Shown here: one piece after another, positions 3,343-26,499 of the stretch
Layout: every line of letters begins with the position of its first letter
Numbering within the stretch: the stretch's first letter is position 1
NCBI RefSeq assembly: GCF_003330765.1
Contig: NZ_CP024902.1
Span: 1,054,001-1,118,000 of the forward strand
Direction of reading: 5' to 3'
DNA length: 64,000 nt
From: Burkholderia pyrrocinia
Lineage (GTDB): Bacteria; Pseudomonadota; Gammaproteobacteria; Burkholderiales; Burkholderiaceae
Notes under the pieces: model-generated
Told to the model about the DNA's origin: nothing
Databases searched by the model: none
What the model saw: the letters and a program-made list of their open reading frames with translations, nothing else
Made by a program: the position numbers and the translations under genes

Positions 3343-5709
3343 ATGAGCACCACCCCATCGTCCGCCTCCGCGGATTCGACCACCGAAGCCACGGCCCGGT
3401 CGCCTGCGCGCCAGTACATCGACGCGGTCCTCGAACAGTCCTTCCGGCATCTGTTCGGGCCGACCGCCACTCCGGAGCAGCCGCGCAAGCACGGCGTCGT
3501 TTCGATTGCGAAACTGACAGCCGCGCTTGCCGAGTATCTCGCTCCGGACGAAATCAAAGAGGTCAAGGCGGCGTTCCACTTCGGTGACGAAGCCCACCTC
3601 GGTCAATATCGCCAGAGCGGCGAGCCCTACATCACCCATCCCGTCGCCGTCGCGGAAATCTGCGCCGGCTGGAAGCTCGACGCGCAGGCCGTCATGGCCG
3701 CGCTGCTGCACGACGTGATGGAAGACCAGGGCGTGACCAAGAGCGAGCTTGCCGAGCGGTTCGGCCCGAAGGTCGCCGAACTGGTCGACGGCCTGTCGAA
3801 GCTCGACAAGATGGAGTTCCGCAGCCGCGAGGAAGCGCAGGCGGAAAACTTCCGCAAGATGCTGCTCGCGATGGCACGCGACGTGCGCGTCATTCTCGTC
3901 AAGCTCGCCGACCGCCTGCACAACATGCGCACGCTCGGCGCGGTGCCGATGGAAAAGCGCCGCCGCGTCGCACGGGAAACGCTCGACATCTACGCGCCGA
4001 TCGCGCACCGGCTCGGGTTGAACAACACGTATCGCGAGCTGCAGGACATGAGCTTCGCGAACTTCAACCCGCATCGCTACGCGACGCTCGAGAAGGCCGT
4101 GAAGGCCGCGCGCGGCAATCGCCGCGAAGTGATCAGCAAGATCCTCGAAGCCGCGCAGCGCGCGATGGCCGACGCGAAGATCGACGCCGAGATCACCGGC
4201 CGCGAAAAGACCATCTACAGCGTCTACCGCAAGATGCGCGACAAGCAGCTGTCGTTCTCGCAGGTGCTCGACGTGTACGGCTTTCGCGTCGTCGTCGAGA
4301 GCGCGCTCGACTGCTACACGTGCATCGGCGCACTGCACGCGCTGTACAAGCCCGTGCCCGGCAAGTTCAAGGACTACATCGCGATCCCGAAGATCAACGG
4401 CTATCAGTCGCTGCACACGACGCTCGTCGGCCCGTTCGGCGCGCCGATCGAGTTCCAGGTGCGCACGCGCAAGATGCACGAGATTGCCGAGGCGGGGGTC
4501 GCTGCGCACTGGCTGTACAAGAACGGCAGTGCGGATCTCAGCGACGTGCAGAAGCGCGCGCATCAGTGGCTGAAATCGTTGCTCGACATCCAGAGCGAAG
4601 CCGGCGATTCGAGCGAATTCCTCGAGCACGTGAAGATCGACCTGTTCCCCGACGCGGTCTACGTGTTCACGCCGAAGTCGAAGATCATGGCGCTGCCGCG
4701 CGGCGCGACGGCGCTCGATTTCGCGTATTCGATCCACAGCGATCTCGGCAACCAGTGCGTGGCCGTGAAGATCAACAACGAGCTGCTGCCGCTGCGCACC
4801 GAACTGAAGAGCGGCGATATCGTCGAGGTGATCACCGCGCCGTATTCGAAGCCGAACCCGGCATGGCTCGGCTTCGTGCGCACCGGCAAGGCACGCTCGG
4901 CGATTCGTCACTACCTGAAGACGATGCGCCTGAACGAGTCCGTGCAGCTTGGCGAGCGGCTGGTCGACCAGAGCCTGAAGGGCTATGGCCTTGCGCTGGC
5001 CGATGTCGAGCCGGAAGTGTGGGAGAAGCTCGTGCAGTGGACGGGCAACAAGAGTCGTCAGGAAATCTTCGCGGACATCGGTCTCGGCCGCCGCGTCGCC
5101 GCCGTGATGGCCAAGCGCATCGAGGTGCTGATGAGCGGTCGCGACGCGGACGATGATCTGCCGAAGTCCGAGCGGCATCCGGCGCATCATGCGCCGCCGG
5201 TGGTGATTACCGGCACCGAAGGGATGTCCGTGCAGTTGTCGGCATGCTGCCGGCCGATTCCGGGCGACGCGATCATGGGTTACATCGGCATCGGCCTGGG
5301 GATGGCGATTCATACGACCGATTGCCGCGTGGCGCAACGCATTCATCGCCGCGATCCGGGCCGCTGGATCGACGTCGAATGGGCGCCGCAGCCGGGCCGC
5401 CTGTTCGATGTCGCGGTGAAGGCGCTCGTGAAGAACACGAAGGGCATTTTTGCGCGCGTCGCAGCGGACATCACGTCGGCCGACGCGAACATCGTTCATA
5501 TCGCGATGGACGAGGATCTGACGCACGAATCGACGGTGCTGCGCTTCGTGATCCAGGTCAGCGACCGTGTGCATCTCGCCAACGTGATGCGGCGCGTGCG
5601 AACCAATCCGGACGTGATGCGGATCATGCGAGAGCGGTCGACCGACGACGGCGCGCATGCACGGCACGACGGCGGCATGCGCATCGAGCGCGAGCGACAG
5701 GATTATTGA
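3343..5709 (+). CDS. spoT: Bifunctional (p)ppGpp synthetase/hydrolase (Rel/SpoT)
   Basis: 788-residue long RSH protein controlling the stringent response. Domains in order: HD hydrolase with an intact HDVMED motif (about residues 123-128); synthetase domain with REKTIYSVYRKM, YGFRVVVES and GYQSLHTT; TGS domain starting around DLFPDAVYVFTPKS; a helical/zinc-finger-like region with CCRPIPGD; and a C-terminal ACT domain (VAADITSADANIVHIAM). The intact HD motif argues for hydrolase activity, unlike hydrolase-dead RelA. Start ATG at 3343 is preceded by GGAGG. Downstream is a clear intrinsic terminator. Upstream in-frame alternatives are absent. Confidence 0.95.
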   Translation: MSTTPSSASADSTTEATARSPARQYIDAVLEQSFRHLFGPTATPEQPRKHGVVSIAKLTAALAEYLAPDEIKEVKAAFHFGDEAHLGQYRQSGEPYITHPVAVAEICAGWKLDAQAVMAALLHDVMEDQGVTKSELAERFGPKVAELVDGLSKLDKMEFRSREEAQAENFRKMLLAMARDVRVILVKLADRLHNMRTLGAVPMEKRRRVARETLDIYAPIAHRLGLNNTYRELQDMSFANFNPHRYATLEKAVKAARGNRREVISKILEAAQRAMADAKIDAEITGREKTIYSVYRKMRDKQLSFSQVLDVYGFRVVVESALDCYTCIGALHALYKPVPGKFKDYIAIPKINGYQSLHTTLVGPFGAPIEFQVRTRKMHEIAEAGVAAHWLYKNGSADLSDVQKRAHQWLKSLLDIQSEAGDSSEFLEHVKIDLFPDAVYVFTPKSKIMALPRGATALDFAYSIHSDLGNQCVAVKINNELLPLRTELKSGDIVEVITAPYSKPNPAWLGFVRTGKARSAIRHYLKTMRLNESVQLGERLVDQSLKGYGLALADVEPEVWEKLVQWTGNKSRQEIFADIGLGRRVAAVMAKRIEVLMSGRDADDDLPKSERHPAHHAPPVVITGTEGMSVQLSACCRPIPGDAIMGYIGIGLGMAIHTTDCRVAQRIHRRDPGRWIDVEWAPQPGRLFDVAVKALVKNTKGIFARVAADITSADANIVHIAMDEDLTHESTVLRFVIQVSDRVHLANVMRRVRTNPDVMRIMRERSTDDGAHARHDGGMRIERERQDY

Positions 5710-5897: not shown

Positions 5898-5974
5898 TGG
5901 CGCGGCTGGCAGGATTCGAACCCACGACCCCTTGGTTCGTAGCCAAGTACTCTATCCAACTGAGCTACAGCCGC
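5898..5974 (-). tRNA. tRNA-Arg(ACG), copy 1 (most distal)
   Basis: 77 nt on the minus strand, starting GCGGCTG and ending CAGCCGC-G-CCA, so CCA is encoded. The anticodon loop CT-ACG-AA closes on CTTGG/CCAAG, giving anticodon ACG (read as ICG), arginine. The T-arm has the usual GGTTCGAATCC. It is the last of three identical copies in one direction, opposite to the flanking spoT and greB genes. Confidence 0.98.
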
Positions 5975-6035
5975 ACGCAAAGCGGTACTGCTTAACTGTC
6001 GGAACCTTCTGCGATGGGAAGGCCCCCAAAAAAAG

Positions 6036-6112
6036 TGGCGCGGCTGGCAGGATTCGAACCCACGACCCCTTGGTTCGTAGCCAAGTACTCTATCCAACTG
6101 AGCTACAGCCGC
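6036..6112 (-). tRNA. tRNA-Arg(ACG), copy 2
   Basis: Identical over all 77 positions to copies 1 and 3, with encoded CCA. The 61-nt spacer to copy 1 contains a short CCTTC/GAAGG hairpin and a run of seven A on the plus strand. The three copies probably form one precursor transcribed from the greB side towards spoT. Confidence 0.98.
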
Positions 6113-6178
6113 ACGCAAAACAAAAAAGCTACTACTTCGAACTGAAAGGGCCTTCGGTTTGGAAGGCCCTTGAAAAGG

Positions 6179-6255
6179 TGGCGCGGCTGGCAGGATTCGA
6201 ACCCACGACCCCTTGGTTCGTAGCCAAGTACTCTATCCAACTGAGCTACAGCCGC
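6179..6255 (-). tRNA. tRNA-Arg(ACG), copy 3 (promoter proximal)
   Basis: Identical to the other two copies. Upstream on the minus strand (6256-6290) is an A/T-rich stretch reading CCTTTTTATACAACCCTGCTATAATTTCGC. It contains TATAAT (plus 6269-6274) with TTTATA/TTGTAT-like elements before it, a good promoter candidate for the tRNA cluster. The 66-nt spacer to copy 2 contains a GGGCCTTC/GAAGGCCC hairpin with little T-tail, perhaps an RNA-processing signal. Confidence 0.98.
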
Positions 6256-6386: not shown

Positions 6387-6950
6387 ATGAACAAGGCGTT
6401 TGTCAAAGAGTCGGACGGTGACGACGACGATCTCGACCAGGCTCAACCCGCGATTCCGGCGGGCGCGAAGAACTACATCACACCGGCCGGCCACAAGCGG
6501 CTGAGGGACGAGTTGCTGAGCCTGATCGACGTCGAGCGTCCCGAGGTCGTGCGGCTCGTGTCGTGGGCCGCGTCGAATGGGGACCGGTCCGAGAACGGCG
6601 ACTACATCTACGGCAAGCGGCGGCTTCGCGAGATCGATCGCCGCATCCGCTTCCTGACGAAGCGGCTCGATCTTGCCGAAGTCGTCGACGCGAGCCGGCA
6701 GGAGAATGTCGACCAGGTGTTTTTCGGCGCAACGGTCGATTACGAGACGCCGGACGGCGAGGATCACACGATCACGATCGTCGGGATCGACGAGGTCGAT
6801 CTCGACCACGGCTGCGTCAGCTGGATTTCACCGGTCGCGCGTGCGCTGATCAAGTCGAAGATCGGCGATACCGTCACACTGATGACGCCGGCCGGCCCGC
6901 AGCCGATCGACGTGCTCGACGTCCGTTATCCGGTACCGGGCAAGGCCTGA
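6387..6950 (+). CDS. greB: Transcription elongation factor GreB
   Basis: 187-residue Gre factor that stimulates the intrinsic RNA cleavage activity of backtracked RNA polymerase. An acidic N-terminal extension (SDGDDDDLDQ) precedes the coiled-coil domain starting NYITPAGHKRLRDELLSL. Acidic residues at the coiled-coil tip lie in the segment NGDRSENGDYIYGKRRLREID. The C-terminal FKBP-like domain includes FFGATVDYETPDGEDHTITIVG and ends GPQPIDVLDVRYP. GreB rather than GreA is favoured by the YIYGKRRLREID segment and the length. It is convergent with the porin gene. Confidence 0.93.
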   Translation: MNKAFVKESDGDDDDLDQAQPAIPAGAKNYITPAGHKRLRDELLSLIDVERPEVVRLVSWAASNGDRSENGDYIYGKRRLREIDRRIRFLTKRLDLAEVVDASRQENVDQVFFGATVDYETPDGEDHTITIVGIDEVDLDHGCVSWISPVARALIKSKIGDTVTLMTPAGPQPIDVLDVRYPVPGKA

Positions 6951-7090: not shown

Positions 7091-8236
7091 TCAGAAGCGA
7101 TGACGCAGGCCGGCCGTGACCGCGATCTGCTTGTTGGTCGACGACGCGGCGCCCAGCCCGTTGATGTTGGCGCCGAGGTCGAGACCGTCGTTGTTGACCT
7201 TCTGGAATTCGCCCTGCAGGTAGACGTCGGTGCGCTTCGACAACGCATAGTCGGCTTGCAGGTTGAACTGGTGCCAGGTCGGCTTGTCGCCGGCCAGACG
7301 CCCCTGCGTGTACGTATAGGAGCCGGCAAGCGACAATGCCGGCGTCAGCGCGTAGCGGCCGTTGACTTCATAGTTGCTGAAGCGCGCGGTTCCACCGAGG
7401 CCCGTGATGCCGCCGGACACGCCGGACTGGCCCGCGCTGATCGCGCGGATGCCGGTCAGGCGCGTTTGCGTAAACACGAAACCGACCGTAGCGGGGCCGA
7501 ACCCGTAATTCAGGCCTGCGCCCCAGGTGCGCTGCACGCGTGACGCGAAGGTCCAGTCGCCGGTCACCGCGCCCGGATCGGTCGCTGCCTGCGCGAGCGC
7601 GTTCACGTCGCTGTTCAACTGCAAGTAGGCTGCGGCGAAGTTGAAGCCCAGGTAGCTGTACGACACACCGCCGCTATATGCGCGGTTGTTCGCGAAAGCC
7701 GACGAGTTCGAGAACCCGTACAACGCACCGAACTTGAGGCCGCCGTAGTTCGCGCTCTGGTACTTGACCGAGTTGTTGATCCGGAACGAGTTGTTCAGGT
7801 TGTCGTTGTCGAACGGGTGGGCGAACTGGGTGCCGCCGTATTGCGTACCGGTCAGCGACAGCGGCCCGAGATAGTCGACGACGCTGTCGTACTGCCGGCC
7901 CAGCGTCAGCGAACCGTAGCTGTCGTGCGCGAGGCCGACAAACGCTTGCCGGCCGAATTCGCGGCCGTTCTGTTTCAGCGCGCCGTTATTGATGCCGAAA
8001 CCATTTTCCAGCGTGAAGATCGCTTTCAGGCCGCCGCCGAGGTCTTCGGTGCCGCGCAAGCCCCAACGGCTGCCGTTGACCGAACCGCTCGTTTCCTGCC
8101 AGGCGCTGTGACCGCCCTGATTGTTCGTGTAGGTGATGCCTGCGTCGATCAGGCCGTATAGCGTAACGCTGCTTTGTGCATGGGCTGCCGTAACGAATAC
8201 ACCCGACAACGCGGTGACGATCAAGATTTTTTTCAT
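7091..8236 (-). CDS. Outer-membrane porin (OmpC/Porin_4 family)
   Basis: 381-residue general porin of the Burkholderia OmpC/OpcP type, forming trimeric 16-strand beta-barrels for passive uptake of small solutes. It has a signal peptide MKKILIVTALSGVFVTAAHA and a mature start QSSVTLYGLIDAGITY. Conserved segments are WGLRGTEDLGGGLKAIFTLE, FGRQAFVGL and LGRQYDSV, and the C-terminal strand is GLRHRF ending in Phe as needed for BAM recognition. The ATG is preceded by GGAGA seven bases away. A/T-rich sequence 8395-8406 offers a -10 (TATATT) with a weak TTAGAT 17 bp upstream, implying a leader of about 150 nt. The leader contains the sequence targeted by the sRNA candidate at 8636-8719. Confidence 0.93.
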   Translation of the reverse strand: MKKILIVTALSGVFVTAAHAQSSVTLYGLIDAGITYTNNQGGHSAWQETSGSVNGSRWGLRGTEDLGGGLKAIFTLENGFGINNGALKQNGREFGRQAFVGLAHDSYGSLTLGRQYDSVVDYLGPLSLTGTQYGGTQFAHPFDNDNLNNSFRINNSVKYQSANYGGLKFGALYGFSNSSAFANNRAYSGGVSYSYLGFNFAAAYLQLNSDVNALAQAATDPGAVTGDWTFASRVQRTWGAGLNYGFGPATVGFVFTQTRLTGIRAISAGQSGVSGGITGLGGTARFSNYEVNGRYALTPALSLAGSYTYTQGRLAGDKPTWHQFNLQADYALSKRTDVYLQGEFQKVNNDGLDLGANINGLGAASSTNKQIAVTAGLRHRF

Positions 8237-8635
8237 GGATCTGTCTCCAAACAGGATGATGTCGATCGAACCTGCTGCCGGACGGGCATGTTTTGCTTGA
8301 CGCTGTGGCCGGCCCGGCAGAGCGGCGGTGCGCTTATCAGAAAGCCATCTGCAGTGTACGGAGTGCGCGAAGCGGAGGAAGGTTGCGCGTTAAGCAATAA
8401 TATATTTTGGAATCGGCAAAAATCTAAGAGTCCGCGCAAACGATTGCCCATCAAGGGTTTGCGGCGGTGCAACGAAAGAAATTGGTGGTCAGGGCGACGT
8501 AACGGGCGTTGCGTGATCGCGACAGGCAATCAGCAGCAGGCGGGGGTGGCCGAAGCGCGATTATTGACGCTTCGGCAATAGAGGTTTGTGTGGAGCATGG
8601 ATAATGAAAGGTTGTTCTCTCGCTATACTGCGATC
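8237..8635. promoter_or_regulatory. Porin upstream region with divergent promoters
   Basis: No protein gene is convincing here. It holds the porin Shine-Dalgarno (GGAGA, plus 8244-8248) and a minus-strand -10 candidate TATATT near 8400. On the plus strand, a -10 candidate TATACT at 8624-8629 is placed to start the candidate sRNA about 7 bp downstream. Open frames in this stretch lack typical Burkholderia codon bias. Confidence 0.5.
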
Positions 8636-8719
8636 TCTGCTTTCCGAAGCAGACTTTTTCGTTGACGGAAAAGATCTCCAAACCTTTGTCGGCGCGACTT
8701 CCCAGTCGCGCTTTTTTTT
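8636..8719 (+). ncRNA. Candidate trans/cis-adjacent sRNA with three hairpins
   Basis: About 84 nt. Hairpin 1 (8636-8653) is a perfect 7-bp stem TCTGCTT/AAGCAGA with a TCCG tetraloop. Hairpin 2 (8654-8673) is an 8-bp stem CTTTTTCG/CGGAAAAG with one wobble and loop TTGA. Then comes an unpaired linker 8674-8691. Hairpin 3 (8692-8711) is a perfect 8-bp stem GCGCGACT/AGTCGCGC with loop TCCC, followed by eight T: a textbook intrinsic terminator. No plus-strand protein gene precedes it, and on the minus strand the hairpin has no T-tail, so it does not serve the neighbouring minus gene. A -10 TATACT lies at 8624-8629. The linker contains TCTCCAAAC (8675-8683), complementary to the porin Shine-Dalgarno region. 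Confidence 0.72.
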
Positions 8720-8736
8720 GCCCGCTTTTCCGTGCG

Positions 8737-9003
8737 CTATTGCGCGTGCGAGCGCCGCTTGCGCTTGGCCGCAGGCGCGGCTTCCTTGGCTTCGGTCGGC
8801 GGCGGCGTGTAGGTCCAGTCTTCCATCACGTAGTGACGGGCATCCAGTGGCGATGCGAGCAGGTTCTGCCAGTGATCGCCGTGCCAGGTCGTATCGAACT
8901 CAGTGTCGCAAGGCGCTTCGCGAGCGGACTCGGCCAGCGCGCGGGACTTGCGACGTACGCGTCCGAGCCGGCTCGCGAAGCGCTTGATTGCGTCCAGCCA
9001 CAT
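8737..9003 (-). CDS. Small basic hypothetical protein
   Basis: 88-residue protein beginning MWLDAIKRFASRLGRVRRKS. It has no signal peptide or membrane segment. It is very basic at both ends (RRKSR; KRKRRSHAQ) with an aromatic middle (TTWHGDHWQNLL and VMEDWTYTPPP). I do not recognise a family. The gene is supported by an AAGGAGAAGG ribosome site before the ATG, coherent GC3 and its own divergent spacing from cspA. The basic, Lys/Arg-rich tail suggests nucleic-acid or membrane-surface contact, but this is only inference. Confidence 0.7.
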   Translation of the reverse strand: MWLDAIKRFASRLGRVRRKSRALAESAREAPCDTEFDTTWHGDHWQNLLASPLDARHYVMEDWTYTPPPTEAKEAAPAAKRKRRSHAQ

Positions 9004-9250
9004 GACCTTCTCCTTCCTTTCTGCGTTAAGTCAGCATCGCAATGTCCCCGGATTTCCGCAACCCGGAAAAAACCCGAGGATTTTACCGAGTCGATTTGTC
9101 CCCGGTAGGAATTTCGTGGTCGGAATTATTGATGATTCGATCCCGGTAACATTGACAGGTTTTTGATGCGAATCAATTAATAAAAGGCGATGGTGTACCG
9201 ATTCCAGTGGTATTAGCGCTTTTTCGATAAAACGGTCGCTAAAAATTTTC

Positions 9251-26212: not shown

Positions 26213-26346
26213 TGTGAACCATCGGTCTCGCCAGGCCTAGGTGGCTGCGCCCGCCATGGCCAAACGGCCAAGTCTGTTGACGGACGCCTCCGTCACGATG
26301 CGCGCCGGTAGCGCGGGACATCGAGCGGAGCGGCTACTCCCCAATG
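26213..26346 (-). promoter_or_regulatory. yybP-ykoY manganese riboswitch
   Basis: On the minus strand the sequence shows the family's conserved blocks in order: GGGGAGTAGCC (plus 26332-26342), then GTCAACAGACTTGGC and finally GGCCTGGCGAGACC (near plus 26225-26238). The blocks are separated by helices as in the Rfam yybP-ykoY fold. TAAAAT about 13 bp upstream (plus 26355-26360) may be the -10. About 75 nt separate it from the exporter GTG, room for an expression platform. Confidence 0.88.
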
Positions 26347-26499
26347 AGCGGCGGATTTTAGCACGGCGCGTCACGCACGGGAAAGCGGTCGAACTGCCGC
26401 GCGGAGCGTCGGAGCGCGATCGGCGCGGGGCGCGTTCGACTGTCCGGCATGCGCGGTGGCGGACGCGCGCGCATGCCGGGACGGGCGCCCGGCGGGCCG

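Follow-up and report, generated by a model that had tools for sequence, protein, structure and literature searches.

NcS25, a conserved small RNA next to a porin gene of Burkholderia pyrrocinia, and its probable target, a distant porin

Introduction

A short element on the plus strand of the Burkholderia pyrrocinia genome, at 8636..8719 of the window (the whole 64,000-nt stretch of DNA analysed, from contig NZ_CP024902.1), lies next to a porin gene and carries nine nucleotides, predicted to be unpaired, that are complementary to the ribosome-binding region of that gene. A sequence-only reading of the locus took the element for a candidate small RNA (sRNA) that would block translation of its neighbour. 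The question raised by the locus is whether such an RNA exists and, if so, which porin it acts on. Porin sRNAs of this kind are well known from the enterobacteria, where MicF and MicC are Hfq-dependent and occlude the Shine-Dalgarno (SD) sequence of their targets.

Identity and Structure of the RNA

Positions 8636-8720 of the plus strand match the Rfam family RF02869 (ncS025, 'Burkholderia sRNA 25') with 114.1 bits in cmscan, well above the curated gathering score of 46 that defines membership, and the match is full-length, covering model positions 1-85 of 85. The 84-nt RNA at 8636..8719 is identical over all 84 nt to the NcS25 RNA of B. cenocepacia NCTC13227. In B. cenocepacia, NcS25 has been mapped by dRNA-seq as an 84-nt transcript, and its Northern band is gone in a deletion mutant (PMC5688073; PMC10117139). 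It is encoded there between BCAL3007 and the porin gene BCAL3008 (PMC10117139), and the locus in the window has the same surroundings, with a BCAL3008-type porin adjoining and a hypothetical protein and a cold-shock protein gene downstream. Compared with NcS25 of B. cenocepacia J2315, no difference was found in the RNA, and both its neighbours and its predicted pairing with the ortholog of the porin BCAL3473 are alike; the strain alone differs. The candidate put forward from the sequence is thus a genuine sRNA with a published transcript, and it is not new: it belongs to RF02869 and is the already described NcS25, whose mode of action is in print.

The three consecutive plus-strand hairpins noticed in the sequence are present in the predicted fold, at 8636..8653, 8654..8673 and 8691..8712, with a minimum free energy of -29.2 kcal/mol (z = -2.81; equally good folding in 2 of 200 shuffles). 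The 3′ arm of hairpin 1 takes part in the predicted pairing with the coding start of BCAL3473, and hairpin 2 would open on that pairing, which involves NcS25 nt 11-45. Hairpins 2 and 3 are separated by a 17-nt linker (8674..8690), unpaired in the predicted fold, that carries the seed TCTCCAAAC at 8675-8683. Hairpin 3 is the stem of an intrinsic terminator (8691..8719), recognised from the sequence, the fold and a terminator scan; the eight T that follow it (8712-8719) had been read correctly, while the description as a perfect GC stem was slightly overstated, as 6 of its 9 pairs are G-C.

Further RNA matches lie elsewhere in the window, both on the minus strand. One is a match to the manganese (yybP-ykoY) riboswitch RF00080 at 26217-26354; the other is a set of three tRNA matches at 5901-6255, of equal score (64.8 bits) and about 140 bases apart, between an ORF ending at 5709 and an ORF starting at 6387.

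Upstream Region and Terminator

The putative -10 element of the NcS25 promoter is TATACT at 8624..8629, and this hexamer lies within 20 nt upstream of NcS25 in 50 of the 61 loci compared; a consensus scan returned no full sigma-70 promoter for NcS25. Farther upstream, about 76 nt before the start, alignment and pattern counts delimit a conserved element, ATTATTG-N9-CAATAGAGG (8560..8584, plus strand). Its shorter form, ATTRTT-N-AAYA, is found at this distance in 35 of the 61 loci against a mean of 0.2 and a maximum of 2 in 100 shuffles, figures to be read with the facts that the pattern was drawn up with the alignment in view and that the loci are related. The fuller form occurs at a single place in the own genome, at NcS25. 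This element, which goes unmentioned in the parts of PMC10117139 consulted, is possibly the site of a regulator. It is overlapped by a perfect 8-bp inverted repeat, CCGAAGCG / CGCTTCGG at 8550-8575, which is absent, by eye, from the 16 other loci aligned.

On the other side of NcS25, the terminator does not close any plus-strand gene of known kind, in agreement with the sequence-only reading, and no such gene lies upstream of the element either. A convergent minus-strand ORF ends at 8737 (8737..9003); it encodes an 88-aa hypothetical protein in the position of BCAL3007, with no Pfam or NCBIfam match at E 0.001. The NcS25 terminator has been called bidirectional and common to the downstream gene (PMC10117139). 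The stem motif could be located in 60 of the 61 loci, and on the minus-strand side not one of these 60 carries at least five T within the 8 nt that follow it; a scan of 8230-9020 returned no minus-strand terminator, so that the bidirectional nature of the terminator is doubtful. Because the minus-strand side carries no T run, transcription of the 88-aa gene could run on and produce an RNA antisense to NcS25.

The Distant Porin as Target

In B. cenocepacia, the loss of NcS25 raises the mRNA of a distant porin, BCAL3473, 83-fold in planktonic cells and 27-fold in biofilm (log2 of 6.4 and 4.8 in the deletion mutant, respectively); intact NcS25 complements in trans, and complementation is lost when NcS25 is mutated in the pairing region (PMC10117139). 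The authors report a pairing interval of -14 to +16 and propose that a seed from a single-stranded part of NcS25 covers the SD, with SD occlusion and RNase recruitment as the proposed means of repression (PMC10117139). The type of mechanism suggested from the sequence, a single-stranded linker over a porin SD, is therefore that of the published proposal, on another gene.

The own genome encodes 62 porins with a PF13609 domain, which were ranked by their predicted pairing with NcS25, with energies obtained from a simple duplex-plus-opening script, not IntaRNA. The first of the 62 is the porin at C1:562894-563913 (L021), which is taken as the BCAL3473 ortholog. NcS25 nt 11-45 are predicted to pair with its positions -12 to +16 (duplex -40.4, net -18.0 kcal/mol), an extended complementarity at the gene start that lies close to the published interval. 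At least 9 bases complementary to the linker region are found in the leaders of 9 of the 62 porins. Four porins other than L021 (L071, L056, L014 and L012) can pair with the NcS25 linker over 10-12 nt of their leaders, and are better predicted partners than the adjacent porin.

NcS25 is a trans-acting small RNA of the Burkholderiaceae whose linker, through its TCTCCA core, would seed on the SD of the distant porin mRNA, that of the BCAL3473 ortholog. From this seed, pairing would spread across hairpin 2 and hairpin 1 and reach the first codons, and the resulting duplex would block translation initiation and lower the level of the porin mRNA. The slight effect obtained with the published translational reporter (PMC10117139) counts against this explanation. 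Considering all the evidence, NcS25 almost certainly represses the distant BCAL3473-ortholog porin by linker-seeded SD pairing, and we infer that it acts in this strain as in B. cenocepacia.

By analogy with MicF and MicC, NcS25 would act in trans by base-pairing across the translation start of a porin, and its fold and predicted pairing provide what typifies such RNAs, an unpaired seed complementary to a porin SD. With regard to Hfq, what is visible in NcS25 is just the 3′ run of eight T.

Conservation in Relatives

At E 0.001, 163 of 299 genomes of the family have an RF02869 match; they are distributed over 8 of 25 genera, and in 153 of them the match lies above the gathering score. None of 14 control genomes has one in the same search, whose strict filters lose some weak matches. 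From the matches listed for the 163 genomes, 60 relatives were hand-picked to spread over the genera; second copies in G095, G128, G213, G013 and G285 did not enter the comparison. In three genomes of one genus (g11, presumably Pandoraea), the second-ranked porin hit was used because its start matches those of the other members of the genus.

An unchanged linker 9-mer is present in 57 of the 60 relatives (58 of 61 with the window). A BCAL3473-like gene is found at E 1e-110 in 47 of the 60, the remaining 13 being weaker, at E 1e-75. The TCTCCA core lies inside the longest linker match of the BCAL3473-like leader in 49 of 60, and 46 of 68 BCAL3473-like leader records, second copies included, have the start AAGTCGCTTCTCGC. 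In pairing with its own NcS25, the BCAL3473-like leader beats the adjacent porin in 55 of the 59 relatives compared, and the median is -13.95 for the former versus -4.75 for the latter (60 comparisons, window included). The BCAL3473-like candidate is no better than the neighbour in four genomes, G285, G078, G106 and G025. Orthology is unsure in part of the set, since in G285 candidate and neighbour are one gene, and the identity to L021 is just 49-58% for 15 candidates. As far as the sequences go, this genome and most of the relatives examined share both the RNA and its predicted pairing.

The leader of the adjacent porin behaves differently from the linker. Among the 59 relatives in which it is readable, the 9-nt match is found in 6, all from the genus of the window (6 of 12 inside, 0 of 47 outside), and in 50 of the 59 the linker 9-mer is intact and the leader has no 9-nt match to it. 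The match is therefore not kept wherever the linker is kept, which is the outcome that the sequence-only reading had itself named as refuting its choice of the neighbour. Taken together, conservation and the published data indicate that NcS25 likely acts on a distant paralog rather than on its neighbour.

The Adjacent Porin and Other Alternatives

The adjacent porin (7091..8236, minus strand) is a 381-aa protein in the position of BCAL3008, with a PF13609 score of 181.6 bits. The complementarity noticed at this gene is real: TCTCCAAAC occurs exactly twice in the window, both strands counted, at 8675-8683 in the linker and at 8244-8252, antisense to the porin leader, where 0.21 occurrences are expected and two copies are reached in 2 of 100 shuffles. 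On the porin mRNA the match (8244..8252, minus strand) reads GTTTGGAGA, which forms the SD region 7 nt upstream of the ATG at 8236. Nevertheless, in the NcS25 deletion mutant the change in BCAL3008 mRNA was 'not significant', in both planktonic and biofilm cells (PMC10117139). The neighbour leader of B. cenocepacia NCTC13227 (L250) has the same GTTTGGAGACAGATCC-ATG as the window and, as the type strain carries identical NcS25 and 9-mer, the match has in effect been tested by the BCAL3008 result, which very probably applies to the 9-mer of the window. PMC10155701 names NCTC 13227 as the type strain, and in PMC10117139 the entry for J2315, LMG 16656, bears a type-strain mark; from these two labels we infer that they are one strain.

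Other explanations of the locus have to be set against repression of the distant porin. It is hardly conceivable that the structure is a mere terminator or attenuator of a neighbouring transcript, with no sRNA. Its end is indeed a strong terminator, described as common to the downstream gene (PMC10117139), but the window has no plus-strand gene of known kind upstream of it, and the B. cenocepacia RNA has its own dRNA-seq start, a Northern band lost in the mutant and an activity that complements in trans (PMC10117139; PMC5688073); the start site and the Northern band rule this explanation out in that species. The adjacent porin as main target was likewise rejected, on the published negative, its place among the porins of the genome (rank 33 of 62, net -6.7 kcal/mol) and a match that is not conserved. 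BCAL3008 stayed flat at the mRNA level whereas BCAL3473, the genuine target, moved strongly at that level (PMC10117139). As the BCAL3008 data concern mRNA, they leave room for an effect on translation only. That NcS25 also represses the adjacent porin in this way, by the 9-nt SD pairing and in part of the genus Burkholderia, is unlikely, and this porin is not a demonstrated target of NcS25. In favour of such an additional role, the porin ranks second among 34 mechanically called gene starts of the window, being alone with at least 9 matched bases, and the match is found in half of the readable neighbour leaders within the genus (6 of 12) and, among named loci nearly identical to this one (35, of which 2 have no porin on the piece), in 28 of the 33 leaders that could be read. 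Outside the genus, it is missing from all 47 neighbour leaders, though the linker is kept in most.

The 9-mer before the neighbour is probably a feature of porin leaders in the genus, a strong SD with a U-rich upstream flank that paralogs share and that has nothing to do with sRNA control of this gene. The 9-mer is infrequent in the 20 nt preceding an ATG but does occur elsewhere, with 13 rows at 12 places in the 8.0-Mb genome against none for the reversed pattern. GTTTGGAGA before the ATG marks 5 of the 62 porins of the own genome, where several porins surpass the neighbour in their match to the linker; elsewhere it marks 8 of 266 porins in a set of six genomes with NcS25 and 1 of 152 porins in seven genomes without an RF02869 match, which were picked among 20 listed of 136 such genomes. 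Porin starts with the 9-mer were first assigned to porin places by eye, and in the seven genomes lacking RF02869 all 39 pattern rows were checked by tblastn, directly or as the second row of the same place, yielding one porin start. Fisher tests, a hint at most since related genes are counted as independent, give p = 0.034 for all NcS25 bearers versus non-bearers and p = 0.10 for the six other bearers alone. Bearers from outside the genus do not clearly exceed the non-bearers (4 of 206 versus 1 of 152 porins, p = 0.29), as expected of a leader feature unrelated to the sRNA. Against this explanation stands the excess within the genus, where the two genomes have 9 of 122 porins so marked versus 1 of 152 (p = 0.0036, with related genes again counted as independent).

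Concluding Remarks

From the sequence alone, an sRNA with experimental proof behind it and a mechanism of the right type were recovered, with the nearest gene taken as the target in place of BCAL3473 or its ortholog. In the genus of the window, several porin leaders, that of the neighbour included, match the NcS25 seed by 9-12 nt. A joint, rather improbable reading of these leads is that NcS25 might hold back the translation of many porins while hardly changing their mRNA levels, with its own synthesis set by a regulator at the -76 element and opposed by antisense transcripts running in from the 88-aa gene. If this were true, NcS25 would be a regulated multi-porin brake, with a bearing on the permeability of the Burkholderia outer membrane.
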